From NCBI GenBank assembly GCA_023249635.1, contig JAHFCH010000035.1, forward strand, positions 1-39,784: a DNA stretch of 39,784 nucleotides, written 5' to 3'. The notes under the pieces were generated by a model. It saw nothing but the letters and a program-made list of their open reading frames with translations, did no database searches and was not told the origin of the DNA. This document shows, piece after piece, positions 12,406-26,270 of the stretch. Every line of letters begins with the position of its first letter. Position 1 is the first letter of the stretch. Source of the stretch: Fibrobacterota bacterium (lineage in GTDB: Bacteria; Fibrobacterota; Fibrobacteria; UBA11236). A program made the translations under genes and the position numbers.

Positions 12406-13788
12406 CTAAAAGAAGTAGGCGATCTTGGTCATCCAGTACCAATCCTCGGGCGTGGACGTGGCCGTCTCGTACGTGGCCGGGGAATTGGCGATTCCGAAGG
12501 GGCGGAAATGATCATTGGCTATTTGGCCGCTGATCTTGAAATGCCCTTCGATGGTCTTGGCGACATGGAAGGCCCACTTCACGTTATCGCGAGCGTAATG
12601 GCGCGGGGGCTTACCTTCGTCGCCGGCCTTCACGAGATCAAAGGGGATAGGCGATACGATGCGATTGATCTCCGGCTCGAGCCTCCACAAATCGTCGCGG
12701 AATTGCGCGCCGTACCATTCCACTTCCAAGGATGCATGGTCGAGCCAACCGAAAGCGGGGAGGTTGAAACCCGCCATCATGGGCATGCGCTGGGCCAGGC
12801 CCCCGTACACGGCCTTGTGCGCTTTGTCGAAGTTCAGTCCCATCACCGCGACTTCGCCGTAGAGCTTCAAGTCCTCCGCGCCCAATGCGGCAGGCGAGCC
12901 GAACCAGGATTTCGGATCGATCTCGAAATCCGCCATCAGCTTGGTGCCGTCGAAACCGAGGTAGGTGGTGTCGGGCTTGCCTCCCACCGTGTCCACGTAG
13001 ATGGTCTGGCGCTGCCAAACGTTGGGATGCACCTCGTCCTTGGTCTCCGAAGTGGAATCGTAGGGATGATGGCTGATCTTCCCATCATTGGGGACGACCC
13101 GGTACAGGTTCACGCCGGCTCCCACGGTGATCGCTTGCGAGAGTCGGGCGCGCCCGATGTAGGCCGCGGACAGATCGAAGTACGGCTTAAGCTGCGTTTC
13201 CGAATTCACCACCACATCGCTCGTGAGGATTCCGGTCTGGTTGCGGAACCACAAACCCAGCACGTTGGCGAGCGGGACCACATCGGCGGTTTCGAAGCCC
13301 GAAATAAGGAACCCGGGATAGACGGATCCGCGCAGCAGGTACAGGCCCAGGTCCTTGATGTTGGGGTCGTAATTGTAATGGAACAGGCCACCCGTGGCCT
13401 GCAGCCTGGGGCTGGCCTTGTCGCCCAGGGTATAGGTGAAATTGGCCGCGGCGATGTAAGGGCTGGCGGATACCATCACGCGGCCGCCTGAGGCGATCTG
13501 GCCCGCCAGGGCGTGGCCTTCGTAGACCCCCAAACCTACCGCACCGCTCAGGCGATCGTTGATGGAGGCGGTTGCGGTAATTTGCGCGCCGGAATTCTGT
13601 ACCGGGTTGCCGTTGTAATTATTGGCGAGGGTATCCGAGCTCTTCTCGACCTGGCCGTACTGGACCTAGCCCACGCCGCCGAAACCTACGCCCGCATCCT
13701 GCGCGGACACGCTCGACGCGGCAACGCCCGCCAAGGCCATGGCCAGGGATGCCAAGGTAACGCGCGGGTTGATGAAGATACGGTTCAC
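12406..13788 (-). pseudogene. Outer-membrane barrel protein interrupted by one in-frame TAG
   Basis: Read from the GTG at 13788 (GAGG ahead of it), the frame encodes 460 residues with one internal stop, TAG at 13666-13668, codon 41. The N-terminus is a signal peptide ending near SSVSA. Downstream of the stop the frame is intact for 420 codons, with YNYDPNIKDLGLYLLRGSVYPG, QRMPMMAGFNLPAFGWLDH and the C-terminal ISGQIANDHFRP and WMTKIAYFF blocks of the family; the final Phe is the usual barrel-assembly signal. In paralogues the TAG position is Trp (SWAQYGQI at 18201-19514, here stop-VQYGQV), so one G-to-A change explains it. It may be a recent nonsense mutation or a sequencing error. Closest partner: 18201-19514, sharing KAHKAxYG and QRMPMM. 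Confidence 0.75.
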
Positions 13789-13798
13789 TACGGCATCC

Positions 13799-15208
13799 TC
13801 AGAAGTAATAAGCCACTTTGCACATCCAATACCAGTCGAAGGTATCGCTCAGGGTCTCGGATTGCGCGGGGCGCAGGTAGAAACCGCCCGTACGCAGATG
13901 ATCATTGGCGACCTGGCCCGAGAACTTGAGATGACCGCCCACCACTTTGGAAGCGTACAAGGCCCATTTCCAATTGTCGCCGCGGGTATCGGTATGGAAG
14001 GTGTCTACCACCGCTCCGGATGCGTTGGTGATCTCCAGGCCCGCCTTGGGACGGGGAACCCAGGAAATATCCTCGAGCTCTTTCTCGTAGTCGGTGGTAT
14101 TGCGATTGGCGTAGTACTCCACCTCCAGGCTCAACTCATCCAGGTGGCCGAAAACCGGCAGATTGAATCCCAACATCACCGGCATCCTGCGCAGCGCGTT
14201 GTCGTAATACTTCTTGTAGCTCTTGACGCCCAGGAGCGCGACTTCGCCGTAGATGAGCAAGTCCTTGGGACCGAACGGACCGGAGATGCCCAGCAGGGAT
14301 TTGGGATCGATGGAGAAGCGGCCCATCAGCTTCACCCCGGAAAGCGAACCGGTGATGGTATCCACGCTCGCGGCGGAATCGGCGCCGCCCGCGGTCTTCA
14401 CGAAGGCCGTATCCAGGATATAGCACACTTCATGGTCGCCGGGATCCACGCCCAAAACGCTCACGGTATCCTTGCAATCCTTGCCGGGCGAATTGCGTTC
14501 GGAAACCTGGGGCAAGGCCCGGTACCAGTTCGCGCCGGCGCCGATCTCGATGCCTTCGCGGATGCGGTACCGCATTATGTAAGCGAAGGAGAGATCGAAG
14601 TAGGGATTGATATCCGTCTCGGCGTTGACCAGGAAATCGCCGCGGTAGCCCCCCATTTCATGGCGCGCGTCCAGGCCGAAAACATTCGCGATGGGCAGCA
14701 CGTCCTTGGTCTCGAAACCGGAGATGACGATGCCGGGATAGACCATGCCGCGCAGCAGGTATAGGCCCAGATCTTTGCTGTCAGGGTTGTAGTTGAAATG
14801 GAAGGAACCCGCCGTGGCCTGAAAGGCGGGATGCCCGGCATCGCCGACGGTATAGGTGAGACGCGCTTCGGTCACGTAAGGCGACCAGGCCAGGTAAGGG
14901 GCGTTGTCATGATCCGGCGATCCACGGTACCAGCGCGGGATCTGGATGGCGCCTAATCCCAAACCGCCTTCCCATCCGCCGCCCAGATCGGCAACCGCGG
15001 TGATCTGCCCGCCGGTGTTCTGGGTCCAATTGTCGTTGAAGTTCTGGCCCTTGCCGTCGGTCAGGGTATCGGACGATTTCCCGATACGACCGCCTTGGAT
15101 CCATCCGGCTCCATGATACTGGATCTTGATTTCCTCCGCTCCCTGCGCAACGCAGGCCAGCGCGGCGGCGAAACCGAAGGCGAGGGCGATGCCGGGCAAC
15201 GCGCGCAT
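13799..15208 (-). CDS. Outer-membrane beta-barrel family protein (type E/B)
   Basis: 469 residues from the ATG at 15208, which overlaps the upstream stop as TGATG. That overlap decides the start, and the resulting N-terminus MRALPGIALAFGFAAALACVAQGA is a clear signal peptide. The mature protein begins with YHGAGWIQGGRIGKSSDTL, has the family core FNYNPDSKDLGLYLLRG followed by MVYPGIVISGFETKDVLPIAN, and ends WYWMCKVAYYF with a terminal aromatic typical of barrels inserted by the Bam machinery. Alternating hydrophobic strands throughout suggest a barrel of about 16 or more strands. It pairs with 19530-20861, sharing GKDC, a CYI segment and the YYDxxLRRxPVM block. I do not recognise a named family; a porin or receptor role is a guess. 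Confidence 0.85.
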   Translation of the reverse strand: MRALPGIALAFGFAAALACVAQGAEEIKIQYHGAGWIQGGRIGKSSDTLTDGKGQNFNDNWTQNTGGQITAVADLGGGWEGGLGLGAIQIPRWYRGSPDHDNAPYLAWSPYVTEARLTYTVGDAGHPAFQATAGSFHFNYNPDSKDLGLYLLRGMVYPGIVISGFETKDVLPIANVFGLDARHEMGGYRGDFLVNAETDINPYFDLSFAYIMRYRIREGIEIGAGANWYRALPQVSERNSPGKDCKDTVSVLGVDPGDHEVCYILDTAFVKTAGGADSAASVDTITGSLSGVKLMGRFSIDPKSLLGISGPFGPKDLLIYGEVALLGVKSYKKYYDNALRRMPVMLGFNLPVFGHLDELSLEVEYYANRNTTDYEKELEDISWVPRPKAGLEITNASGAVVDTFHTDTRGDNWKWALYASKVVGGHLKFSGQVANDHLRTGGFYLRPAQSETLSDTFDWYWMCKVAYYF

Positions 15209-16800
15209 CAGAAGAAGTACCCCATGCGCAACATCAGGTACCAATCCTGAAGCGAAGATGAGAATTCCGCCGCTCCCGAACCGTCGAGATCGGCGTACTG
15301 GGTCCGCGTCGCCGGCGGGCGGAAATGATCATTGGCGATTTGCCCGGTAAAGCGGATGTGTCCGCGCACCGTCTTGCGGAAATACAGGGACCATTTCCAG
15401 TTATCCTCGGTGAGTCCCTCGATATCCAAGGCGGTTCCCGTGATTTGCAGGGGACCGGGAACCTTGATGACGTTACCGCTGCCATCGATGACGGGATTGC
15501 CGCCCGCATCCAGGCTGTCCTTCAACAATCGTCCCGTAGCCGGATCCACGCCGCCCTTGGCGTTGATGGGATCGTAGGTCTTGTAGGAGACGGGAATGGG
15601 CGAAGGCAGTTCCGAATATTTCTGCTGGGTAAGTTTGGAGACGCTGTTGCGGTACCGGGCCCCGTACCATTCCGCCTCCAGGGACACCACGTCGAGCCAA
15701 CCGAAGGCCGGCAGGTTGAATCCGATTACCACCGGGATGCGCTGGCCGCGATCGGAGTAGACGGAACCGTAATTCTGCACTCCAATCAGAGCGCACTCGG
15801 CGTATAGCTTGAGATCCTCGGGCCCCATGTTCCCGCCGATACCGAATACGCGCTTGGGATCCAGGCTGGCCATGGCCATCAGCTTGATGCCGCGATGGGT
15901 GTATTCCACCGTGGGCGTATACTTGAGCAATGGCTTTCCGCTGGCGGTGTCGATGCGGACCACGCCTTGCGCATCCCGCAAGGTATCGATGCGGCCCTCG
16001 GTATAATAATGATCGTAGGCATGCTTGTCGCCGGCGGCCGTGAGCGCCGAATCGCGCGAATAATAGGCGGGATCGTTGGGGGTTGTGAGCTTGCCGTTGG
16101 CGGGAAGCAAACGGTATAGGTTCATACCGGCCCCGATCTCCACGCCGTCTACGGGCCGGTATTTGGCGACGTATCCCAGGGACCAGTCGAAGGTGGGCGG
16201 CAAGGCGCGCTCGTTCGAGAAGACCACATCATGGCTGAAGCGCCCCAGGGACTGATGGAACTTGAGTCCGAGGATATCGCCCTTGGTATCGTCGACCGCG
16301 GGATCGATAAAGCCGGAAACCAGCAGCCCGGGATAGACCGCGCCCCGGAACAGGTACAGCCCCAGGTTTTTCACGTCCGGGTTGTAGTCGTAATTGAAAT
16401 TGCCGAAGGTGACGCTCAGGGAGGGATCCGCCTTGTCGCCGCGGAAGTAGGTCATGCGCGATTCGGTGATGAAGTTCTTGAAGAAGAACTGCATGCTCTT
16501 GAAGGCCACATCGCCGCTGCCCAGCATGGAATGCGCCTGGTAGCCGCCGATGCCGAAAGCCCCTTCCCAGTTCGTTCCGATATCCGCATAGGCCGTGAAT
16601 TGGGCCCCGGCGCTGATCATGGGATTGCCGTTCAGGTTCGCCAGCAAGGTATCGGTGGAATGGCCTATACGCCCGGCTTCGGCCCAGCCTTGCCCGCTGA
16701 TGCGGTAGGCCACATCGCCGCCGCGCGCGGCGGAGAACGCCAGGCCCAAGGCCAGCGCCCAATTCGCCGTGGCGTTCCGCATGTGGGGAAAAGCGTTCAA
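15208..16800 (-). CDS. Outer-membrane beta-barrel family protein (type F/C)
   Basis: About 530 residues, the longest of the six paralogues. The start is uncertain: TTG at 16800 has AGGA eight bases ahead and gives a signal peptide (NAFPHMRNATANWALALG and on); an ATG at 16782 is the alternative. The frame is open further upstream, but that stretch contains a hairpin. The body has GQGWAEAGRIGHSTDTL, FFKNFITESRMTYFRGDKAD, YNPDVKNLGLYLFRGAVYPG, ALPPTFDWSLGYVAKYRP, GQRIPVVIGFNLPAFGWLD and the terminal FTGQIANDHFRP and YLMLRMGYFF. It pairs with 20887-22350 through FITxSRxT and PPTFDWSLxYxAK. A long loop (about residues 400-470) rich in Gly, Asp and Pro may be surface-exposed. Function unknown. Confidence 0.83.
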   Translation of the reverse strand: MNAFPHMRNATANWALALGLAFSAARGGDVAYRISGQGWAEAGRIGHSTDTLLANLNGNPMISAGAQFTAYADIGTNWEGAFGIGGYQAHSMLGSGDVAFKSMQFFFKNFITESRMTYFRGDKADPSLSVTFGNFNYDYNPDVKNLGLYLFRGAVYPGLLVSGFIDPAVDDTKGDILGLKFHQSLGRFSHDVVFSNERALPPTFDWSLGYVAKYRPVDGVEIGAGMNLYRLLPANGKLTTPNDPAYYSRDSALTAAGDKHAYDHYYTEGRIDTLRDAQGVVRIDTASGKPLLKYTPTVEYTHRGIKLMAMASLDPKRVFGIGGNMGPEDLKLYAECALIGVQNYGSVYSDRGQRIPVVIGFNLPAFGWLDVVSLEAEWYGARYRNSVSKLTQQKYSELPSPIPVSYKTYDPINAKGGVDPATGRLLKDSLDAGGNPVIDGSGNVIKVPGPLQITGTALDIEGLTEDNWKWSLYFRKTVRGHIRFTGQIANDHFRPPATRTQYADLDGSGAAEFSSSLQDWYLMLRMGYFF

Positions 16801-16849: not shown

Positions 16850-16881
16850 GCGAATCCGGACCTGAAAGTTAACAACGAAGT

Positions 16882-18006
16882 TTACAAGGGAACGGCGCGC
16901 GCGAACCGGCTTACATGGCCCGAGCGCACTTCGATGAGGAGAACGCCTTTCGCGGAAACGCCAAGGGACCGCGCCAGTTCGCCTGCGGGAGCGCGGAATC
17001 CCGCCAACCGCTTGCCCGCCAGATCGGTCACCGTGATTTCGCAGGCCTGATCCAGGCGGCCGCGCAGCACTCCGCCGGCGAAGCTGAAGACCGGAGCCGG
17101 GCGGTTGGCCGCGCCCATCGCGGTAGTCACCAGGGGATTGCCGGCATTATCCAACTCGCGCACGCGGATGTTGCGGTACCAGTCACCTGCCGTGGTCTTC
17201 TGCCAATACCCGTTCCCGTGCACCTGGAGAGCGGTATAACCGGTCGCGGTAATCACCTTGTTGTAGTACGAAGGCCAGGTCACGTCCAGGGTCTTGACCC
17301 ATTTGGCCCCATTCAGCTTGCGCATCCAAGCCTGGTGCTTGGGCGGGTTTCCGAAAATCTTGACTCGAAGTTCATTCCAGCCATTGGGGTCGAACATGTC
17401 GGCCGGGACCAGCGAAGCCTTATCGGTAATGCCCGCATTGCCCTGGGTGCCCGTGAATGGCGAAGTCTCGGAGCCGCCGAACTTGTAGGAGCAGTTGTAG
17501 AAGGAGGCGCCTTGGTTCTCCATCTCCTGCGGGTAGCTGCCGCCGATGCAATTGTCCGCTTTGTAGTCGAGCACCGTCTGGTAGGCGTAGACCTGCTCGG
17601 TGGTGCGATGGTAGATGCCGGCGTCATTTCCGAAATCCGCCCAATACTCGAGGATGATTTCCTGGTTGCCGTACTTCTTGTTGGTGCAGAGGGCCGAACC
17701 GCCCGGGGCGGTGGCGCGCTGCTGGGTGTAAATCGCATGCAGGGCCGGATCCACCTTGTAGATGCCGCCCTTGGTGGAGTTGCTGTGGTTGGCATCTTCG
17801 CCGTGGCAGTTGTTCCACCAGCCCTTGAGATCGGTGCCGTTGAAGATGCTGACGAAACCGCTGTCGCCTGGGATGCTCACGTCGTCGGTGCCGGCATTGT
17901 CGACGCAGGGCGCTTCCGCCGTAGCGGGAACGGGCCCGGGTTGGGCGTTCACAGCCGAAGCCGCCGCCGCGATGAGACCCGCCAATACCACATGAACTCG
18001 TGCCAT
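16882..18006 (-). CDS. Secreted DUF1080 protein with C-terminal sorting-like domain (copy 1)
   Basis: 374 residues. A signal peptide covers about residues 1-21 (ending AVNA). Residues about 49-285 match DUF1080 (3-keto-disaccharide hydrolase / concanavalin-like fold): FVSIFNGTDLKGWW, FGNDAGIYHRTTEQVYAYQT and LQVHGNGYWQKT. Residues about 303-374 are a small beta-sandwich-like module with ITVTDLAGKRLAGF and SAKGVLLIEVRSG, resembling the C-terminal sorting domains of type IX secretion. Two halves with several Cys suggest disulphides. The ATG at 18006 has GGGGAG seven bases ahead. The family often acts on or binds sugars, but catalysis here is unproven. It leads copy 1 of the cassette and pairs with 22485-23744. 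Confidence 0.85.
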   Translation of the reverse strand: MARVHVVLAGLIAAAASAVNAQPGPVPATAEAPCVDNAGTDDVSIPGDSGFVSIFNGTDLKGWWNNCHGEDANHSNSTKGGIYKVDPALHAIYTQQRATAPGGSALCTNKKYGNQEIILEYWADFGNDAGIYHRTTEQVYAYQTVLDYKADNCIGGSYPQEMENQGASFYNCSYKFGGSETSPFTGTQGNAGITDKASLVPADMFDPNGWNELRVKIFGNPPKHQAWMRKLNGAKWVKTLDVTWPSYYNKVITATGYTALQVHGNGYWQKTTAGDWYRNIRVRELDNAGNPLVTTAMGAANRPAPVFSFAGGVLRGRLDQACEITVTDLAGKRLAGFRAPAGELARSLGVSAKGVLLIEVRSGHVSRFARAVPL

Positions 18007-18140
18007 AATCAGCTCCCCGACCGGTAATGATCCAATTTAATCGGGAGCCGGTGGGGCGTAAGGGCGTTTGGATTAATTTCTGTCATTTTGAGGACAAACA
18101 ATCCAATTAAAAGTCGCTAATTACAGTGTTTTCTCATTAA
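18007..18140 (-). promoter_or_regulatory. AT-rich upstream region of DUF1080 copy 1
   Basis: This 134-base stretch is clearly richer in A and T than the surrounding genes and lies between a strong terminator and the DUF1080 start. It is where a promoter for cassette copy 1 must sit if the terminator at 18141-18173 works. Several TTG-type and TAAT-type hexamers are present, but no pair with good match and spacing stands out, so no exact box is called. Confidence 0.45.
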
Positions 18141-18173
18141 AAACAAAAAAACGGACCCCATTCAGGGGTCCGT
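18141..18173 (-). terminator. Rho-independent terminator after barrel gene 18201-19514
   Basis: Read on the minus strand, a perfect nine-base stem (18165-18173 with 18151-18159; ACGGACCCC/GGGGTCCGT) with a five-base loop is followed by seven T, a G and more T. It lies 28 bases after the stop codon at 18201. It closes cassette copy 2 and separates it from copy 1. Confidence 0.92.
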
Positions 18174-18200
18174 TGCAGGTAGGGTTAAAGCGTTTCGGGG

Positions 18201-19514
18201 TTAAAAGAAATACGCGATCTTGCCGGTCCAATAGAACTCGCTCGGCGAAAAGAAGGGCACGTTGTTCAAGGGCGGGTTGTTATCGCCATATCCCTGGAAG
18301 ATGCCGGGCCGGAAATGGTCGCTCGCGACTTGGGCGCTGATCTTAACGTGACCGGCCAAGACCTTGGCCGCGTACACGGACCACTTCAGGTTGTCCTTGG
18401 TGGTATTGGTATCAAGCGCGCTGATCTTCGGGATGGGCGTGACCTGCGGACCCGAAGTGTGGTTGTAGATGGAGGGATCGTCGACCCAAGGGGCCTTGTA
18501 CATCTCGAATTCGACGTTGAGGCGATCGAGTAGGTGGAAGGCCGGGAGGTTGAACCCGATCATCATTGGCATGCGTTGGGAGATGGGGCCGTACAAGGCC
18601 TTGTGCGCCTTGTCGCCATCGAGGCCGAGCACGGCCACTTCGCCGTAGATCTTCAAGTCCTCGGCGCCTAGCGCTTCCACTCCGCCCATCAAGGCCTTGG
18701 GGTCGAACGAGAAATCGCCCATGAGCTTGGTGCCCTTGAACGAGATGTAGGTGGTGTCATGCGCGGTGGTGTCGATGTACATCACTTCCGGAGTTTTCTT
18801 CGAGGTGAGCTTGGAATCCATGGGGATCCAATGGTACAGGTTCACGCCCGCGCCCAGCCGGAACGCCGAGCCGAGCTTGACATGGGCCACGTAGGTGGGC
18901 GAGATGTCCCAATAGGGGAACCAATCGCCGTCGAAGGTGAAGAGCAGGTCATGCTCGAACATGCCGGACTGGTGATGCAAGGCCAGGCCCAGCGTGTTGG
19001 CCACCGGCAGCACGTACTTGGTCTCAAAGCCCGAGGTCAGAAGCCCCGGGTAGACCGGCCCGCGCAGCAGGTAAAGTCCCAGGTTCTGGGCGTCCGGCGC
19101 GTAATCGTAAGGGAAGAGGCCCACCTGCACATTGAGCTTGGCGGATTCCTCATCCCAGAACGAGTACTTCATGTTGGCGTTGGCCACATAGGGACCCACG
19201 CCATAGGGAGCGTAATACCCTTGGATGTTGCGGGCCGCGATATTGTGCCCCGCGCCTACGCCCAATCCGGCGTTGACCTGGAGTTTCTCGTTGGCCTGGT
19301 AGTTGATCGCGAATTGGGCGCCGGTGCCGATCATACCCTTGCCATCAAGGTCCTTCTGCTCGGCGGTGTCGAGGCTTTTCACGATCTGTCCGTATTGGGC
19401 CCAGCTCGCGGCGCCCAGGGTAAGCTTGCCTTCGCCATGGGCCAGGGACAGGCAGCCGACCGCACCCAGCAGGGCCAGGGCGGAACGCATCGTATTCTTG
19501 ATGAACGGGTTCAT
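18201..19514 (-). CDS. Outer-membrane beta-barrel family protein (type D/A)
   Basis: 437 residues from the ATG at 19514, chosen because AGGA lies five bases upstream; an ATG four codons earlier has no such site. A signal peptide ends near SLAHG. The body shows LGAASWAQYGQIVKSLDTA (Trp38), YAPDAQNLGLYLLRGPVYPG, SGFETKYVLPVANTLGLALH, GAGVNLYHWIP, KAHKALYGPISQRMPMM and the end FYWTGKIAYFF. The pattern is a secreted, C-terminal-Phe barrel of unknown function. It is the intact partner of the interrupted gene 12406-13788. It begins 15 bases after the previous barrel gene and is followed by a strong terminator, so it is the last gene of cassette copy 2. Confidence 0.86.
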   Translation of the reverse strand: MNPFIKNTMRSALALLGAVGCLSLAHGEGKLTLGAASWAQYGQIVKSLDTAEQKDLDGKGMIGTGAQFAINYQANEKLQVNAGLGVGAGHNIAARNIQGYYAPYGVGPYVANANMKYSFWDEESAKLNVQVGLFPYDYAPDAQNLGLYLLRGPVYPGLLTSGFETKYVLPVANTLGLALHHQSGMFEHDLLFTFDGDWFPYWDISPTYVAHVKLGSAFRLGAGVNLYHWIPMDSKLTSKKTPEVMYIDTTAHDTTYISFKGTKLMGDFSFDPKALMGGVEALGAEDLKIYGEVAVLGLDGDKAHKALYGPISQRMPMMIGFNLPAFHLLDRLNVEFEMYKAPWVDDPSIYNHTSGPQVTPIPKISALDTNTTKDNLKWSVYAAKVLAGHVKISAQVASDHFRPGIFQGYGDNNPPLNNVPFFSPSEFYWTGKIAYFF

Positions 19515-19529
19515 GCTGTTCCTCATGGC

Positions 19530-20861
19530 CTAGAAGAAGTAGGCGATCTTGGTGGTCCAGTACCAGTCAGAGCGGGTACGCATCGCTTCCTTGCCGGCAT
19601 CCTCGTCGTGGTTGCCGCCCAGGCGGAGATGGTCGTCGGCGATCTGGCCCAGCAGGATGAAGTTGCCGGCGATCACCTTGGAAGCGTTGAGCGAGTACTT
19701 GAAATCATCCCGCTTGTTGTCGAGCTCGTTGTCGTTCGAGGGTATCGGCGAACCATTGCGGGCCGCCAGATTATTGTTCGAGTTTTTCTGGGCGTAATAC
19801 TCGACTTCGACCGACCAATTCAGGAAGTTGAAACCGGGCAGGTTCAGGCCCACCATCACCGGAATGCGCCGCAGCAGCTTGTCGTAGTAGCGGGGATAAT
19901 CCTTCACGCCCAGGATGGCTACCTCGGAGTATATGGAAAAGGCGCCCGCGCCCATGCTCTCGGGGATGATGCCGGCGGCGGAAGGATCGAATTTTAAGCG
20001 ACCCACCACCTTGGTGCCCGCCAGCGAGGCCAGCACCGTGTCCTTTGCGGCGCCCGTAGCGTCGAGCTCGATGATGTAGCAGGGGCTCTCGGTGGCGGTG
20101 CCGCTGCCTGCGTACACGCCGAGACGCCCGGGGTCGCAATCCTTGCCGGGATTGGTGGCCTCATCGTTCGCGGCGAGCAAGCGGTAGAAGTTCACGCCCG
20201 CGCCGATCTCGAAGGCCGCCGAAGGCTTCCAGGTAAGGATGTCCGAGACGGAAATATCGTACAGAGGCTTGTCGTCGGTCTCTATCTGCACGATGAGGTC
20301 GTTGCCGATACCGCCATTATGGTAAGAGGCCATGGCGCCCGAGATGGCCTGGGGCACGCCCAAGGGGCCGGTCAGGTTCGAGACGATGGCGCCCGGGTAC
20401 ACGTAGCCGTGCACCAGGTAATTGCCGAAATTCTTCGGGTCCGGATTGTAGGCGTAATGCCAGGTGCCGAAGGTGAGTTCGAGCTTATCGTCGCCCGTGA
20501 ACAGGTTGCCCGTGCGCGTGAGACGCGCCTCGTCGACGAATGAGACCCAGAAGGGATACCACTTGTTGGAAATACCCTTGGAGCCGCGCGCCAGGTGGAC
20601 GAATATGGAGCCCAGCCCGAGGGAGCCGTCCCAATGGGAATCGACCTGGGAATGCACCGTCAGCAGACCGCCCGCGTTGCCGAGGTAGTTCTTGCGGTAA
20701 TTGTTGCCCGCGCTTGGGTTGCCTGCGCTGGCCTCGACGCGGCCGCCTTGCAGCCAACCCGCGCCGTGAAAATCGAGCTTCAACTCATCGACGCCTTCGG
20801 CGCGCGCCGCGGCGGCGGCGAACAGGAGGGCGGATGCGAGGTGGAGTTTCTTGTTCATCAT
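19530..20861 (-). CDS. Outer-membrane beta-barrel family protein (type E/B)
   Basis: 443 residues. Two adjacent ATGs (20861 and 20858) follow AGGA; the second has the better spacing and loses one residue. The signal peptide ends near AARAEG. The body begins FHGAGWLQGGRVEAS, has YNPDPKNFGNYLVHGYVYPG (a looser version of the family core), FEIGAGVNFYRLLAAN, GKDCDPGRLGVY, CYIIEL and YYDKLLRRIPVMVGLNLPGF, and ends WYWTTKIAYFF. It is the partner of 13799-15208 and the middle barrel of cassette copy 2. Deviation at the LGLYLLRG core (FGNYLVHG) sets it apart from the other five. Function unknown; location in the outer membrane is inferred from the signal peptide, strand pattern and terminal Phe. Confidence 0.85.
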   Translation of the reverse strand: MMNKKLHLASALLFAAAAARAEGVDELKLDFHGAGWLQGGRVEASAGNPSAGNNYRKNYLGNAGGLLTVHSQVDSHWDGSLGLGSIFVHLARGSKGISNKWYPFWVSFVDEARLTRTGNLFTGDDKLELTFGTWHYAYNPDPKNFGNYLVHGYVYPGAIVSNLTGPLGVPQAISGAMASYHNGGIGNDLIVQIETDDKPLYDISVSDILTWKPSAAFEIGAGVNFYRLLAANDEATNPGKDCDPGRLGVYAGSGTATESPCYIIELDATGAAKDTVLASLAGTKVVGRLKFDPSAAGIIPESMGAGAFSIYSEVAILGVKDYPRYYDKLLRRIPVMVGLNLPGFNFLNWSVEVEYYAQKNSNNNLAARNGSPIPSNDNELDNKRDDFKYSLNASKVIAGNFILLGQIADDHLRLGGNHDEDAGKEAMRTRSDWYWTTKIAYFF

Positions 20862-20886
20862 ATCCTGCTGTCCCCGGCCTCGCGGC

Positions 20887-22350
20887 TCAGAAAAAGTACC
20901 CTATGCGGAACATGTAATACCAATCCTTCGGGCTGGCGAAGGCTTCAGCCGTGCCGCCCCAGGATTTGATCAGGCCCGAAGCGACCGGGCGCGGGCGGTA
21001 ATGGTCGTTGGCGACCTGGCCGATGAACTGGATATGCCCGCTGACGACCTTTTCGGCGAACAGGGACCACTTCAGATCGTCCTTGGTCAGGTTCTCCTTG
21101 TCCATGGCCGTGCCGCGTACCGAAACGCCCGCCGTATCCGTCGACTTCTTGAATACGCCGGCGGTATCGATCCCGTAATCGGCATTGGTAAGGGGCTTGG
21201 GCGTGGCGATCGGATGCGCTTTTACGGTCCAGGGGGCGACCTCGTCGTAGACGTAGCCGGTACCCGCCAAATCGTTGCGGTACTTGGCGCCGTAATGCTC
21301 CACCTCGATGGAGAGGTGGTCGAGGAAGCCGAAGGTCGGCATATTCACGCCAACCATGATGGGGATACGCTCGCCGATCTTTCCGTAGATTTTCCCGTAG
21401 CTCTGGACCCCGATGATTCCCGCTTCGCCGTAGATCTTGAGGTCGTCGGGATTGCCGGGCAGCTCCATGCCGAACAGCTTCTGCAGGCTCAGGGAGAACT
21501 GACCCACCACCTTTTGGCCCTGCATGGTCAGCACCGTGGTGTCCGGCGCAGCAGGATTGGAATTGTCGATGTCGAGAAAGCGGCGGCGGGCGCTGCCGTT
21601 GACCAGGGAGGTATCATCGCCGGGCGATTCCAGCATGGAGTTGTAGGGGATGAGTCGGTATAGGTTGATGCCCGCGCCGATCTGGACGGCACCCAGGTCC
21701 AGCTTGGCCATGTAGGCAAGGCTCCAGTCGAAGGTGGGCGGGATATCGCGCTCGTTGTTCAAGATCAGATCCTGGCTGAACATGCCCATGGAGTGGTGCA
21801 GCTTAAGGCCGAGCAGGTTGGCCTTGGTGGTATCGGCGCTGAAGTCCTGGAAGCCGCCCATAAGGATGCCCGGGTACACCGGGCCGCGCAACAGGTATAG
21901 GCCCAGGTTCTTCACGTCCGGATTGTAGTTGTAGTTGAAGCCGCCCACCGTCAGCGACAGGTTGGGCGCGGCCTTCTCACCGGAATACCAGGTGAGGCGC
22001 GATTGGGTGATGAAGTTCTGGAAAAGCGAGATGGTGAGGTATTGGAACTGGCCCGAACCCAGGGCATGCGAGGCCTTATAGTAGCCGAAGCCGAAACCGC
22101 CTTCGAGGTGTTCGGAAAGATCCGCGACCACGGTCACCTGCGCGCCGATGCTCTGCAGGGTGTTGCCGTCGTAGTTCAGGATATCGTCGGGCGAGAGCGC
22201 GTTCACGATGGTGTCTTCGGCATGCATGATGCGGCCGTAATCGAGCCAGCCCTTGCCATGCATCTGGTATTTGACCTCATCGCCGTTCGCGAGCGCGAAG
22301 GCCGAAGCCGCCGCCGCCAACCAAATCGGATTCATTCTCATTGTGGCCAT
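20887..22350 (-). CDS. Outer-membrane beta-barrel family protein (type F/C)
   Basis: 487 residues from the ATG at 22350; ATGs at 22341 and 22335 are also possible, and no ribosome site decides among them. The signal peptide ends near FALANG. The body has HGKGWLDYGRIMHAEDT, LFQNFITQSRLTWYSGEKA, YNPDVKNLGLYLLRGPVYPG (residues about 142-161), IPPTFDWSLAYMAK, GERIPIMVGVNMPTFGFLD, HYGAKYRNDL and the end FIGQVANDHYRP and YYMFRIGYFF. It pairs with 15208-16800. It is the first barrel gene of copy 2, 134 bases after the DUF1080 stop with a strong hairpin in between. Function unknown. Confidence 0.85.
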   Translation of the reverse strand: MATMRMNPIWLAAAASAFALANGDEVKYQMHGKGWLDYGRIMHAEDTIVNALSPDDILNYDGNTLQSIGAQVTVVADLSEHLEGGFGFGYYKASHALGSGQFQYLTISLFQNFITQSRLTWYSGEKAAPNLSLTVGGFNYNYNPDVKNLGLYLLRGPVYPGILMGGFQDFSADTTKANLLGLKLHHSMGMFSQDLILNNERDIPPTFDWSLAYMAKLDLGAVQIGAGINLYRLIPYNSMLESPGDDTSLVNGSARRRFLDIDNSNPAAPDTTVLTMQGQKVVGQFSLSLQKLFGMELPGNPDDLKIYGEAGIIGVQSYGKIYGKIGERIPIMVGVNMPTFGFLDHLSIEVEHYGAKYRNDLAGTGYVYDEVAPWTVKAHPIATPKPLTNADYGIDTAGVFKKSTDTAGVSVRGTAMDKENLTKDDLKWSLFAEKVVSGHIQFIGQVANDHYRPRPVASGLIKSWGGTAEAFASPKDWYYMFRIGYFF

Positions 22351-22443
22351 CTTTTCGAGGGGAAAGAATTTGCAAGCATCCGTTACGTCACGACTTTGCG
22401 TAAGACTAGAAAAATGGGGTTTTTTTGGAAGGGAAAATCCCGT

Positions 22444-22471
22444 GCCGCCGGATCAGATTTGATCCGGCGGC
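22444..22471 (-). terminator. Strong hairpin after DUF1080 copy 2 (possible attenuator/terminator)
   Basis: A perfect 12-base stem (22444-22455 with 22460-22471) closes a four-base loop, starting 14 bases past the DUF1080 stop. The minus-strand sequence that follows has only four T in a row after six other bases, so termination is likely to be partial. It could reduce expression of the barrel genes relative to the DUF1080 gene, or protect the 3' end. Confidence 0.6.
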
Positions 22472-22484
22472 CCAGGGAATCGGT

Positions 22485-23744
22485 CTATCGGGAAGGACGA
22501 ACGATACGCACGGTTTCCGTGCTGCGCGCGGTCTTGATGTCGACGAACATCACGCCGTGAGTGCTCGTGGCGAAATCATGATGGAACGCGCCGGGCTGGC
22601 CAGCGAAGGATTCCAACGTACGTCCCGTCACGTTTTTCACGGTAACCTCGTACCGTTGATCGATCTTGCCGATGAGGGCGCCTTCATCCGCGTAGACCGA
22701 GTACTTTACGCGGTCGATGGGATTGACGGCCACGATGTCCTTGGGCTTTTGCGGAATGACCACGCCCAGGTCGTCGAGGGGCTTCCAGCGGATATTACGG
22801 TACCAGGTTCCCTTGGCGCCGCCGAAGCGGCCGCCACCGTGGACCTGGAGTCCGATATAACCCTGGCCGACGGGACCGGGCAAGGTGGTGTCTTGCAGGA
22901 CCGGAACCCAGACCGTGCTCCCGATCTTCTTGAACCAGGATTTCATGTGCACGTAGTTCTTATGGTCATTCGCGTCGACGGGCTTATTCAAACCACCGTA
23001 GAATTGGACCTTGATATCCATCCAACCGTTGAAATCCCACAAATCTCCCGACGCCCACTTTTCCTTGGTGCAGCCGGTGGCGTCGCAGGGAAGATTCGGC
23101 TCCGTAGTGGCCTTCAGCTTCTTGGTGATCAGAGTCCAGTCGTTAAGCTCATTACCGCCGGTAAGGCCGGGAATCCCAATGGCCTGCTCGCTGCCGCCGA
23201 ACGAATAGGGCCGGAAATCACGGCCGGTGAAACCGCCCTCGCCCCAAGTGCCACCGACCGCCGCGCCGCCGATGTAGTCGAGCACGGTCTGGAAACAACG
23301 CCCGTTCATGGTGGTGCGATTGAAAAGACCGGCGTCATTGCCGTAATCGGGCCAAGTCTGGAAGGTGATTTCGTAGTTGGTGTGATACCGCTTGCTCATC
23401 AGCAAACCACCGGTACCGGTACCGCGCTGGGTCGAATAGATGGCGGGCTTGCCATCGGCCTGGCCGATGCGGAAGATGGCGCCTTGGCGGGAACCGCCGG
23501 AGTGGCCGGTCTCGCAGCTATGGAACCAGCCCTTGAAGGTGCCATCGAAGAGCGGGAAGTATCCGTCGGGATCCACGCCGCCACCCGAATTAACCGTATC
23601 GGTGTGTACGACGAGCTTTTCATCCGAATCGGCGCAGGGCTCATCACCCGTGGTGGGCGCCGGAACGGGCTGCGCCCATGCCGAAAACGCCGAGATAGAA
23701 CCCAAAACCAGTGCCGATTTTACGGCGTTCCTGAACCAAGACAT
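22485..23744 (-). CDS. Secreted DUF1080 protein with C-terminal sorting-like domain (copy 2)
   Basis: 419 residues from the ATG at 23744, which has GGAAG five bases upstream and starts a good signal peptide (ending SAWA); the frame is open further upstream but without a secretion signal. Residues about 60-320 match DUF1080: YFPLFDGTFKGWFHSC, YGNDAGLFNRTTMNGRCFQT and LQVHGGGRFGGAKGTWYRN. The last 80 residues form a small beta-rich module with EVTVKNVTGRTLESF and HGVMFVDIKTA, like a sorting or carrier domain. Several Cys, including CDATGC, suggest disulphides. It is the first gene of cassette copy 2 and pairs with 16882-18006. Ligand or substrate unknown. Confidence 0.85.
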   Translation of the reverse strand: MSWFRNAVKSALVLGSISAFSAWAQPVPAPTTGDEPCADSDEKLVVHTDTVNSGGGVDPDGYFPLFDGTFKGWFHSCETGHSGGSRQGAIFRIGQADGKPAIYSTQRGTGTGGLLMSKRYHTNYEITFQTWPDYGNDAGLFNRTTMNGRCFQTVLDYIGGAAVGGTWGEGGFTGRDFRPYSFGGSEQAIGIPGLTGGNELNDWTLITKKLKATTEPNLPCDATGCTKEKWASGDLWDFNGWMDIKVQFYGGLNKPVDANDHKNYVHMKSWFKKIGSTVWVPVLQDTTLPGPVGQGYIGLQVHGGGRFGGAKGTWYRNIRWKPLDDLGVVIPQKPKDIVAVNPIDRVKYSVYADEGALIGKIDQRYEVTVKNVTGRTLESFAGQPGAFHHDFATSTHGVMFVDIKTARSTETVRIVRPSR

Positions 23745-24171
23745 ATTAACTTCCATTTTTCTCCCACACGATTGACCCATGGCGCCCCCGATTGGATTTT
23801 GCAAGCTACGGAAATGTAAAACGATCAAAGGATTACACCTTTCGATTCATAGGGAAATGCAGAAAGATGAGCATTGCGGCTCCCCTTTTAACCCCTCCCT
23901 AAGACCGTCGCTCGCCCCCACGAACGAGTAGCAATGTAGCCTCCCCATACCCCGCAAACCGGGCAATGATGGAAAACCCCAGGGGCCGCTATGGCCCCAC
24001 CTATGCCACCAGCCTGAAAGGTATTCTAGAAAACGCCATTTGGGCGTAGGATTTTTAAAAATCTTTCGGCCTTTTCGTTTTCCCCACGAGAACGCTGTAA
24101 ACGCCTTTTGAACCCATTTCCCCAAAAAAGCGGAAAGTAGGCAGGAACGGTTTGGCCTTCGATGAGACGTA
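23745..24171. other. Long divergent intergenic region with several short hairpins
   Basis: No credible gene is seen; short open frames here lack ribosome sites and recognisable content. The region is AT-richer than its surroundings and holds inverted repeats: GGGGCC/GGCCCC at 23982-23998 and ACGCC/GGCGT near 24033-24047 followed on the plus strand by a five-T run. It must contain the promoter for DUF1080 copy 2 on the minus strand. A structured leader or small RNA is possible but not demonstrated, and no known riboswitch class was recognised. Confidence 0.4.
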
Positions 24172-24201: not shown

Positions 24202-24233
24202 GACAGGACTTGTCACGGCTTGGAGGCCAACCC

Positions 24234-26270
24234 ATGGGCACATCCCGGATCCTGGTCATTGAGGACGAAAGCGTCGCTGCCCGCGATTTACAAGAGCGCC
24301 TGCGCGAGCTGGGCTTCAGGGTAAGCGCGTATCAGGAAACCGATTGGGGCATCAGCGTGGAGAACGCGCTGCAACGCCATGCCATGGAGACGAAACTCCA
24401 GGAAAGCCAGGAATGGTTTTTCACCACCCTCCGCAGCATCGGTGACGCGGTAGTGGCCAGCGACGAAAAAGGGCGGGTCACCTTCCTCAATACGCAAGCG
24501 GAAGCGCTCACGGGTTGGCCGCAATCCGAAGCTTGTGGACGGCCGCTTGGGGAAGTATTGCAATTGGAGCGCAGCGCAGCCGATGCGGAAACCGAATCGG
24601 AAGAACAATCCCAAGGCGCGCTGCTTTCCGCCTCGAACGTGCTCACCGCCGAAGTGATTGCCCGGGACGGGGAGCGCACCCCGGTGGAAGCGAAATCCGC
24701 CCTCATCCGCGAAAGCGAAGGGAAGGTGCTGGGTGTGGTCCGCATCCTGCGGGACGTAACGGAACGTAAGCGCGCGGACGAAGTGTTCCGCCGCTCCGAA
24801 AGGCGCTACCGCAACCTGGTGGAGAAATCCCAGGACATCATATTCACCCTCTCGCGCGAAGGCATCATCACCTCGCTCAATCCCGCATTCGAAAAGTGCA
24901 CGGGCTGGCCCGTGCGTGACTGGCTGTTCCGACCGTTCGCCGATCTCCTCAACCCCGCCGACGCCGCGCCCGCCTGGGAATCCTTCCGCAAGGTGCTCCG
25001 GGGCGAATACTTCTCTCCCCAGGAAATGCGCCTCAAGGCCAAGGCCGGAGGGGAAATCGTGGTCGAGTGCGGATGCGCCCCGGCGGTGCAGGACGATCGT
25101 CCCGGAGGCATCTGGGGCATCGCGCGGGACATCACCCAGCGCCGCAACCTGGAACAGCGCGTGCTGCAGACCCAGAAGATGGAGGCGGTAGGCCGCCTGG
25201 CCGGCGGCATCGCGCATGACTTCAACAACCTGCTCACCACGGTCAACGGTCACGCCGATCTCATGAACCAGGCCCTGGAGTCGCATAGCCCCCTGCTCAT
25301 CAACGTAAAGGGCATCTTGGGGGCGGTGGACAAGGCTGCCGCGCTCACGCGGCAATTGCTCTCCATCAGCCGCCAGCAAACCGTTTCCCCCCGTAACTTG
25401 GATGTCAACAGCGTCATCACCAGGGCCCTGCACGGCCTGAATGGACTGGCGGACGAGAACATCGAGCTCATCGCGGATCTGGCCGAAGGGTTGCCGCCCA
25501 TCTTGGCCGATGCCAACCAAATCGAAAGGGTGGCTTCCATCCTCATCGCGAACGCCAAGGACGCCATGGCCAAGGGGGGCCGCCTGGGCATCTCCACCGG
25601 GTTCGGCGCCGAGCCGGGAGGAGCCCTTCGCGTGTTCCTGAAAGTCTCGGATACCGGCGCGGGCATGAACGACGAGGTCAAGGCCCGCCTGTTCGAACCC
25701 TTCTTCACGACCAAGCCCGTGGGCAAGGGCGCCGGACTGGGCCTCTCCACGGTTTACGGCATCGTCAAGACGGCCGGCGGGGAAATCCAGGTGCAAACCG
25801 AACCGGGGCGAGGCACATCTTTCCGGCTCAGCTTTCCCTGCCTGGAGCCGGCGGAAACCGTCGCGCCTTCCGCGCCCGCGGTGGCCGCCGAGGGACCCTC
25901 CGGCGCCGAAACGATTTTGCTGGTCGAGGACGACGACGATGTGCGCTTCTTGTTGCTCAGCATCCTTAAGGCCGATGGGTACTCCGTGCTCGAAGCCAAG
26001 GACGGGGAGCAGGCATTGAACCTGGCCGCGGGCCACGATGGCCCCATCAACATGGTGTTGACCGATTTGCAGATGCCCAAGCTGGGCGGCCGCAAGCTGG
26101 TGGAAAAGCTTTTCCTGACCCATCCCGGCATGCGCGCCATGTTCATGTCCGGATTCGGGCGCGAAGATTTCCCCGACGCGCAAGCCAACGGTTTGCCGGT
26201 GAGCTTCCTGGAAAAGCCCTTCATGCCCAAGTCCTTGGTACGCCAGATACGTCGGGTCTTGGATTCGTGA
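24234..26270 (+). CDS. Hybrid sensor histidine kinase with truncated N-terminal receiver
   Basis: 678 residues from the ATG at 24234 (GGAGG eight bases ahead). Residues 1-32 (RILVIEDESVAARDLQERL) are the start of a receiver domain, but the sequence then jumps to ENALQRHAMETKLQESQEWF, the linker normally found after it, so the phospho-acceptor region is missing. Two PAS domains follow (about 60-175 and 187-300). The kinase core has the H box GGIAHDFNN (His328), N box IANAKDAM (Asn440), SDTGAGM and GLGLSTVYGIV. A second, complete receiver at about 558-678 has EDDDD, Asp611 in LTDLQMPKLGG and Lys661. No membrane segment, so sensing is cytosolic. No partner regulator is adjacent. Confidence 0.92.
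   Translation: MGTSRILVIEDESVAARDLQERLRELGFRVSAYQETDWGISVENALQRHAMETKLQESQEWFFTTLRSIGDAVVASDEKGRVTFLNTQAEALTGWPQSEACGRPLGEVLQLERSAADAETESEEQSQGALLSASNVLTAEVIARDGERTPVEAKSALIRESEGKVLGVVRILRDVTERKRADEVFRRSERRYRNLVEKSQDIIFTLSREGIITSLNPAFEKCTGWPVRDWLFRPFADLLNPADAAPAWESFRKVLRGEYFSPQEMRLKAKAGGEIVVECGCAPAVQDDRPGGIWGIARDITQRRNLEQRVLQTQKMEAVGRLAGGIAHDFNNLLTTVNGHADLMNQALESHSPLLINVKGILGAVDKAAALTRQLLSISRQQTVSPRNLDVNSVITRALHGLNGLADENIELIADLAEGLPPILADANQIERVASILIANAKDAMAKGGRLGISTGFGAEPGGALRVFLKVSDTGAGMNDEVKARLFEPFFTTKPVGKGAGLGLSTVYGIVKTAGGEIQVQTEPGRGTSFRLSFPCLEPAETVAPSAPAVAAEGPSGAETILLVEDDDDVRFLLLSILKADGYSVLEAKDGEQALNLAAGHDGPINMVLTDLQMPKLGGRKLVEKLFLTHPGMRAMFMSGFGREDFPDAQANGLPVSFLEKPFMPKSLVRQIRRVLDS

Follow-up and report, generated by a model that had tools for sequence, protein, structure and literature searches.

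Genes and features of the locus

The sequence analyzed here is a stretch of 39,784 nucleotides from a Fibrobacterota bacterium (contig JAHFCH010000035.1 of assembly GCA_023249635.1), referred to below as the window, and its minus strand carries a locus in which two genes for exported PF06439 proteins, P1 and P2, are each followed by three genes for predicted outer-membrane barrels. We take PF06439 to be the 3-keto-disaccharide hydrolase family, called DUF1080 in older naming. P1 (16882..18006, minus strand) has 374 amino acids and ends in a domain resembling the sorting domains of the type IX secretion system (T9SS); it matched PF06439 with 69.5 bits (cut-off 26.8) over residues 50-283 and over the full profile (1-187), and it has a hydrophobic signal region. 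P2 (22485..23744, minus strand), which we read from an ATG instead of the TTG at 23828 given in the list of open reading frames (ORFs), is a second, divergent exported PF06439 protein with the same kind of tail, and its 27.7 bits were barely above the cut-off. When P1 was compared with the PDB sequences, the best match was 4hxc (E 0.027), and the remaining matches were chance hits to cytochrome c. Anchoring as a lipoprotein was considered and rejected: no lipobox was found in P1 or P2 by pattern search, and a crude lipobox pattern occurred in just two of the 53 listed DUF1080 frames (one tailed, one untailed).

The three barrel genes after P2 are located at 20887..22350, 19530..20861 and 18201..19526, and those after P1 at 15208..16782, 13799..15244 and 12406..13758, all on the minus strand; the last five were placed in one alignment (A2). 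An ATG start was inferred for the first barrel after P1, which the ORF list begins with a TTG at 16875. The third barrel gene after P1 has one in-frame TAG (13666-13668) at an alignment column otherwise occupied by an invariant Trp, and it is either a pseudogene created by a nonsense mutation or the product of an assembly error. None of the five intact barrels gave a Pfam match below E 0.09 or any NCBIfam match, and the family to which they belong has no name in either database. The AlphaFold2 model of a barrel (nine sequences, mean pLDDT 57) contained 16 strands, the last at residues 477-486, and closed as porins do at a C-terminal aromatic residue, F487. The closest solved folds were OprB (Z-score 19.6), OmpM1 (18.8) and the chitoporin VhChiP (18.6), with OmpF also among the top matches, and on the basis of this model we assign a 16-stranded porin fold with moderate confidence.

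Between the third barrel after P2 and P1 we found a terminator-like hairpin with a T run (18150..18174, minus strand; 10 pairs, 7 of them G-C). This hairpin, resembling an intrinsic terminator, may divide the locus into two units; terminator-like sites across the region numbered 8 against 11.6 in shuffled sequences, i.e., they were not in excess. A PAS-PAS-histidine kinase-receiver gene (24210-26270, plus strand), transcribed in the opposite direction to P2, is a possible regulator of the locus.

C-terminal tails and type IX secretion genes

According to the original prediction, both DUF1080 proteins end in a β-rich module with the patterns ITVTDLAGKRL / VTVKNVTGRTL and KGVLLIEV / HGVMFVDI that recalls type IX C-terminal domains (CTDs). 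The module was confirmed in both proteins, with a length of about 70-75 amino acids, at 16897..17088 in P1 (minus strand, residues 307-370, seven predicted strands) and at 22497..22661 in P2 (minus strand). The genome to which the window belongs, a Fibrobacterota metagenome-assembled genome (MAG) of 6.75 Mb in 341 contigs, was searched with the T9SS type A sorting domain profile TIGR04183, which gave 99 matches at E<=10, 26 of them above the cut-off, with the window tails not among these. Reading frames were retrieved for the best 66 of the 99 matches, and a stop codon was present within 26 amino acids of the end of the match in 61 of the 66. After removal of 5 matches far from a stop, 10 NPNP-type tails and 9 tails on DUF1080 proteins, a profile was built from 42 short C-terminal tails, all from non-DUF1080 proteins of the same genome. 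This own-genome profile matched P1 with 20.2 bits and P2 with 21.2 bits, ending 4 and 3 amino acids before the stop, respectively. The last 90 amino acids scored 24.6 (P1) and 25.8 bits (P2), while the best of 5000 shuffles of each scored 11.1 and 6.9. When 267 six-frame ORFs of at least 150 codons, taken from the window, the SprA/PorU/PorV loci and a related locus in another genome (L154), were scanned, ten reached at least 13 bits (lowest 13.1), all of them tail-like, and the next one scored 4.9 bits. The domain of P1 and P2 is thus C-terminal, falls within the length of about 70-100 amino acids expected of a T9SS CTD and shares homology with tails found elsewhere in the genome.

Alignment of 47 tails revealed a sole invariant column, the glycine of a DxxG[KR] loop (47/47), and a second glycine, in a late GxY/GVx motif, that was almost invariant. 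In one study, G699 of RgpB is placed in the L-β3-β4 motif and the G699R substitution is reported to block secretion in Porphyromonas gingivalis (PMC11285876). By our own mapping, the invariant glycine would correspond to G699, and the conserved L-β3-β4 glycine of T9SS CTDs would accordingly be found in the tail alignment. A search of the PDB sequences with the 47-tail profile retrieved the CTDs of RgpB, mirolase and NucA with E-values of 1.4e-4 to 0.004, those of RgpB lying between 1.4e-4 and 0.0013.

The AlphaFold2 model of the P1 tail (four sequences) contained seven strands between residues 307 and 373, with a pLDDT of about 70-80 over most of residues 311-360. This model was compared with solved structures by VIA-align, and the best 50 matches were listed. 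CTDs bound to the SprA translocon were among the best, namely those of RemA (8gl6; Z-score 8.9, 2.2 Å over 71 residues) and RemZ (8gl8; 8.7, 2.0 Å over 69 residues), and further T9SS CTDs were found in PorZ (5m11; 8.4), NucA (8glk; 8.3), mirolase (8qb1; 7.9) and RgpB (5ag8; 7.5). A sugar-binding module was set aside as the less probable fold of the tail, no carbohydrate-binding module being present among the best 50 structural matches listed.

Homologues of SprA, PorU and PorV, whose absence from the genome would have contradicted the original prediction, were all present above their curated cut-offs: SprA with 635 bits together with its neighbours (cut-off 200), PorU with 449.5 bits (420) and PorV with 154.9 bits (90). 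Across the phylum, a SprA match was present in 161 of the 167 genomes (E<=1e-20). In earlier reports, a T9SS is proposed for Fibrobacter succinogenes (PMC6851124), regarded as possible in Fibrobacterota (PMC11285876) and described as present in the superphylum (PMC11205867). Two PorU-like sortases were adjacent to each other on contig C210 (4900-14500, locus L065), one above the cut-off and one with 356 bits, and further PorU-like matches were present on contigs C337 and C186. Five near-identical NYPNPFNP-type CTDs were found on proteins of widely differing length (two on C145 and one each on C251, C319 and C120). The comparison of sequences thus established the type of the tail and the presence of T9SS genes. 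The tails of the window are best regarded as a putative divergent Fibrobacterota branch of T9SS CTDs, and the predicted type IX secretion of P1 and P2 is well supported.

Pairing of tailed genes with barrel genes in the genome and the phylum

The genome contained 55 matches to PF06439, 22 of which carry a tail (at least 10 bits at the C-terminus), 34 matches to ThuA (PF06283), and about 43 paralogues of the barrel, a number obtained by a rough merging of 75 segments. In the 23 porin clusters examined, counted with the clusters of contig C308 merged and with C319:16463, whose barrel lay outside the stretch examined, left out, a tailed gene was located within 500 nt in 20 cases and was mostly PF06439 or ThuA; a DUF1080 or ThuA gene was located within 500 nt in 19. 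Pfam matches identified ThuA proteins and one GSDH in the set of tailed proteins close to barrels. A frequent layout of the clusters with DUF1080 was a single tailed gene with three barrel genes behind it. DUF1080 was found within 8 kb of 26 of the 43 merged barrel segments; the binomial P of 1e-12 is indicative only, as it treats clustered genes as independent and depends on the rough merging of segments into genes. We also observed that ThuA had been expanded alongside DUF1080, with several ThuA copies being tailed and adjoining barrels. Additionally, the short motif [DNSTA]xxG[RK] (as DAxGR) was present in the last 50 amino acids of 20 of the 31 untailed DUF1080 proteins (e.g., at loci L126, L104 and L095) and in 1-6 of the 31 when internal windows were taken, the motif having been picked post hoc; it is possibly a truncated sorting domain.

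The nearest named relative is the Fibrobacteres bacterium MAG RYN_348, which showed 67% identity in a barrel and whose locus L154 contains an orthologue of P2. The barrel in other genomes was surveyed in 20 regions and L154, hand-picked from the best matches. The order of one tailed DUF1080 gene and three barrels, twice in succession, was found in the window, in L154 and in genome G163 of another genus; locus L186 of genome G159 is apparently the L154 contig and was not counted as an independent case. Among the 167 genomes of the phylum, the barrel family was found in 33 (E<=1e-5) and PF06439 in 21 (E<=1e-6), and 19 of these 21 were among the 33 with the barrel. In more distant genomes, the barrel was located near other tailed proteins (ThuA, FG-GAP, alpha-galactosidase, GH5). 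The pairing of the genes and its conservation are established at the level of gene content and order. A tailed protein and its porins would form a module resembling a polysaccharide utilization locus (PUL), in more than 20 copies in this genome, in which passive porins would work alongside a (keto)glycan-acting protein displayed at the surface.

Interpretation and comparison with known systems

Taken as a whole, we consider P1 and P2 to be T9SS cargo, i.e., surface-anchored DUF1080 glycan-acting proteins with paired passive porins, and we give this explanation a probability of roughly three in four. In the proposed mechanism, a Sec signal peptide would direct P1 and P2 into the periplasm, where the SprA/PorV translocon would recognize the seven-stranded CTD and the DUF1080 domain would be carried across the outer membrane. 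PorU probably cuts off the tail, which would leave the protein anchored at the surface, and the DUF1080 domain would then act outside the cell on (3-keto-)glycosides or β-glycans, a putative activity. The products would diffuse inward through the co-encoded 16-stranded, OprB/chitoporin-like passive pores. For P1 and P2, we infer each step from secretion, cleavage and anchoring to enzyme activity, substrate and uptake, and the surface display, the substrate and the partnership of pore and enzyme in particular are put forward as suggestions.

Several results weigh against this explanation. The checks that the original prediction had called for came out in its favour, but the search with type IX CTD profiles did so with a reservation: TIGR04183-type tails were numerous in the genome, but those of the window stayed below the curated cut-off of 23 bits, with no match at E<=10 for the P1 tail and 13.7 bits (E 0.047) for that of P2. 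Full-length P1 and P2 had no CTD match in Pfam or NCBIfam at E<=10, PF18962 did not match the window tails, and Pfam gave nothing relevant for the isolated tails. When eight isolated tails of the locus type were scanned with TIGR04183 (two from the window, only that of P2 matching, two from RYN_348, one from C308 and three from a second genus), seven matched, all below the cut-off, the six related ones with 11.9-20.7 bits. Among the PDB sequences found with the 47-tail profile, RgpB was outranked by two chains unrelated to T9SS, one from an NHL-repeat protein and the other from a repeat adhesin. The structural comparison agrees with a T9SS CTD but cannot decide the matter, because DUF3244, the immunoglobulin-like (Ig-like) domains of GH2 and the middle domains of pilus ushers tie with T9SS CTDs in Z-score. 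In the AlphaFold2 model built from four sequences, the pLDDT was below 50 across the DUF1080 part of P1. The known motor was not found in the genome, as GldL (TIGR03513) and GldM (TIGR03517) gave no match at E<=1; both models take their names from gliding proteins of Bacteroidota, and none of the control-panel genomes exceeded their cut-offs. The missing matches may reflect Bacteroidota-trained models, and this genome may have a divergent motor or a replacement for it. No tailed neighbour was present at three of the porin clusters, C167, C319:53650 and C205, the last of which lies on a contig of 3.4 kb. Finally, the barrel is not always dependent on DUF1080, because 33 genomes contain the barrel and 21 contain DUF1080.

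PorP/SprF holds type B cargo at the surface. The barrels of the window could likewise be docking partners that retain a cargo sorted by its tail, and not sugar pores, which would explain why tailed cargo genes are so tightly paired with barrel genes and would suit the resemblance of the barrels to OmpM1, an attachment porin. We regard this as unlikely, albeit a credible contender, as porins match best, the top structures (OprB, chitoporin, OmpF) being porins of the sugar-selective or general type, and as a large number of the genome's tailed proteins are encoded away from any barrel gene. A more elaborate arrangement would be a novel surface machine for nutrients, in which three tandem paralogous barrels assemble into a hetero-trimeric 16-stranded porin with a T9SS-delivered DUF1080 or ThuA protein as its cap, working in a SusCD-like manner with passive porins and bringing about 3-keto-glycan chemistry at the surface; it is speculative and quite unlikely. 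A reading of the tail as a common accessory domain of periplasmic enzymes, Ig-like in fold, serving protein or sugar contact and unrelated to secretion, is decidedly improbable. Ig-like folds are common, numerous unrelated domains of this kind score level with T9SS CTDs and the curated models miss the window tails; however, the module is almost always the last one in the protein, as seen in the 61 of 66 matches close to a stop, and it is common to unrelated catalytic domains (DUF1080, ThuA, GSDH, GH5) in a genome with SprA, PorU and PorV. That the neighbourhood reflects local duplication of functionally unlinked genes is very improbable: although both families have been expanded by duplication and the window cluster alone holds six barrel genes, the pairing was seen in 20 of 23 clusters, almost every one on a contig of its own, it involves more than one partner family (DUF1080, ThuA), and it is also present in other genera.

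If P1 and P2 are indeed cargo with paired porins, the range of T9SS cargo would be extended from polysaccharide hydrolases to 3-keto-sugar proteins. Judged from the literature searched, sugar uptake in Fibrobacterota beyond the cellulolytic rumen group is poorly known; in the open-licence literature, we found no link of DUF1080 or 3-ketotrehalose with ThuA, no Fibrobacterota porin in polysaccharide utilization and no 3-keto-glucoside lyase of B. theta. The repeated T9SS cargo with a dedicated, unnamed porin family is a concrete and testable system that suggests undescribed sugar handling, and for genome annotation it adds a porin family that neither Pfam nor NCBIfam covers with a model.

The locus can be compared with known systems. 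The tails are similar to the T9SS type A sorting domain (TIGR04183 / PF18962, Por_Secre_tail) in their C-terminal position, their length of 70-75 amino acids, the seven strands predicted for the P1 tail, the DxxG[KR] loop, the late GxY/GVx motif and the SprA, PorU and PorV genes alongside, and they differ in scoring below the curated cut-off. Within the same phylum, the C-terminal domain BTD/Fpm-1 of F. succinogenes is proposed as a T9SS signal in one report (PMC6851124); as described there, it is also a TIGR04183-like C-terminal domain on secreted glycan enzymes, but it is carried by cellulases, whereas the tails described here are on porin-paired PF06439 and ThuA proteins. In another report, the 3-ketotrehalose hydrolase BT2157 and an endo-xanthanase/lichenase are described as DUF1080 proteins, and the DUF1080 protein accompanying LacABC in Caulobacter is proposed there to be a periplasmic 3'-ketolactose hydrolase (PMC9007349). 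The locus shares with this 3-keto-glycoside pathway the DUF1080 family, and has ThuA (trehalose utilisation) as an alternative partner; in contrast to the periplasmic location proposed for Caulobacter in that report, the proteins here are predicted surface cargo, and no dehydrogenase was seen in the locus. The window barrels resemble OprB and VhChiP in their 16 strands (Z-scores of 18-20 for the model) but share no sequence family with them, as judged from the lack of Pfam and NCBIfam matches.

The SusC/SusD loci of Bacteroidota, present in many copies, co-encode a surface glycan protein and an outer-membrane barrel. The locus described here is similar in its co-encoded predicted surface glycan protein and barrel and in its many repeats. 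Pfam gave no TonB-receptor/SusC or SusD match for P1, P2 or any of the five intact barrels, and a predicted 16-stranded porin with T9SS cargo takes the place of the TonB receptor with its lipoprotein. The type of tail is itself already known, and what appears to be new, as far as the sequences indicate, is the repeated module of cargo and porins.

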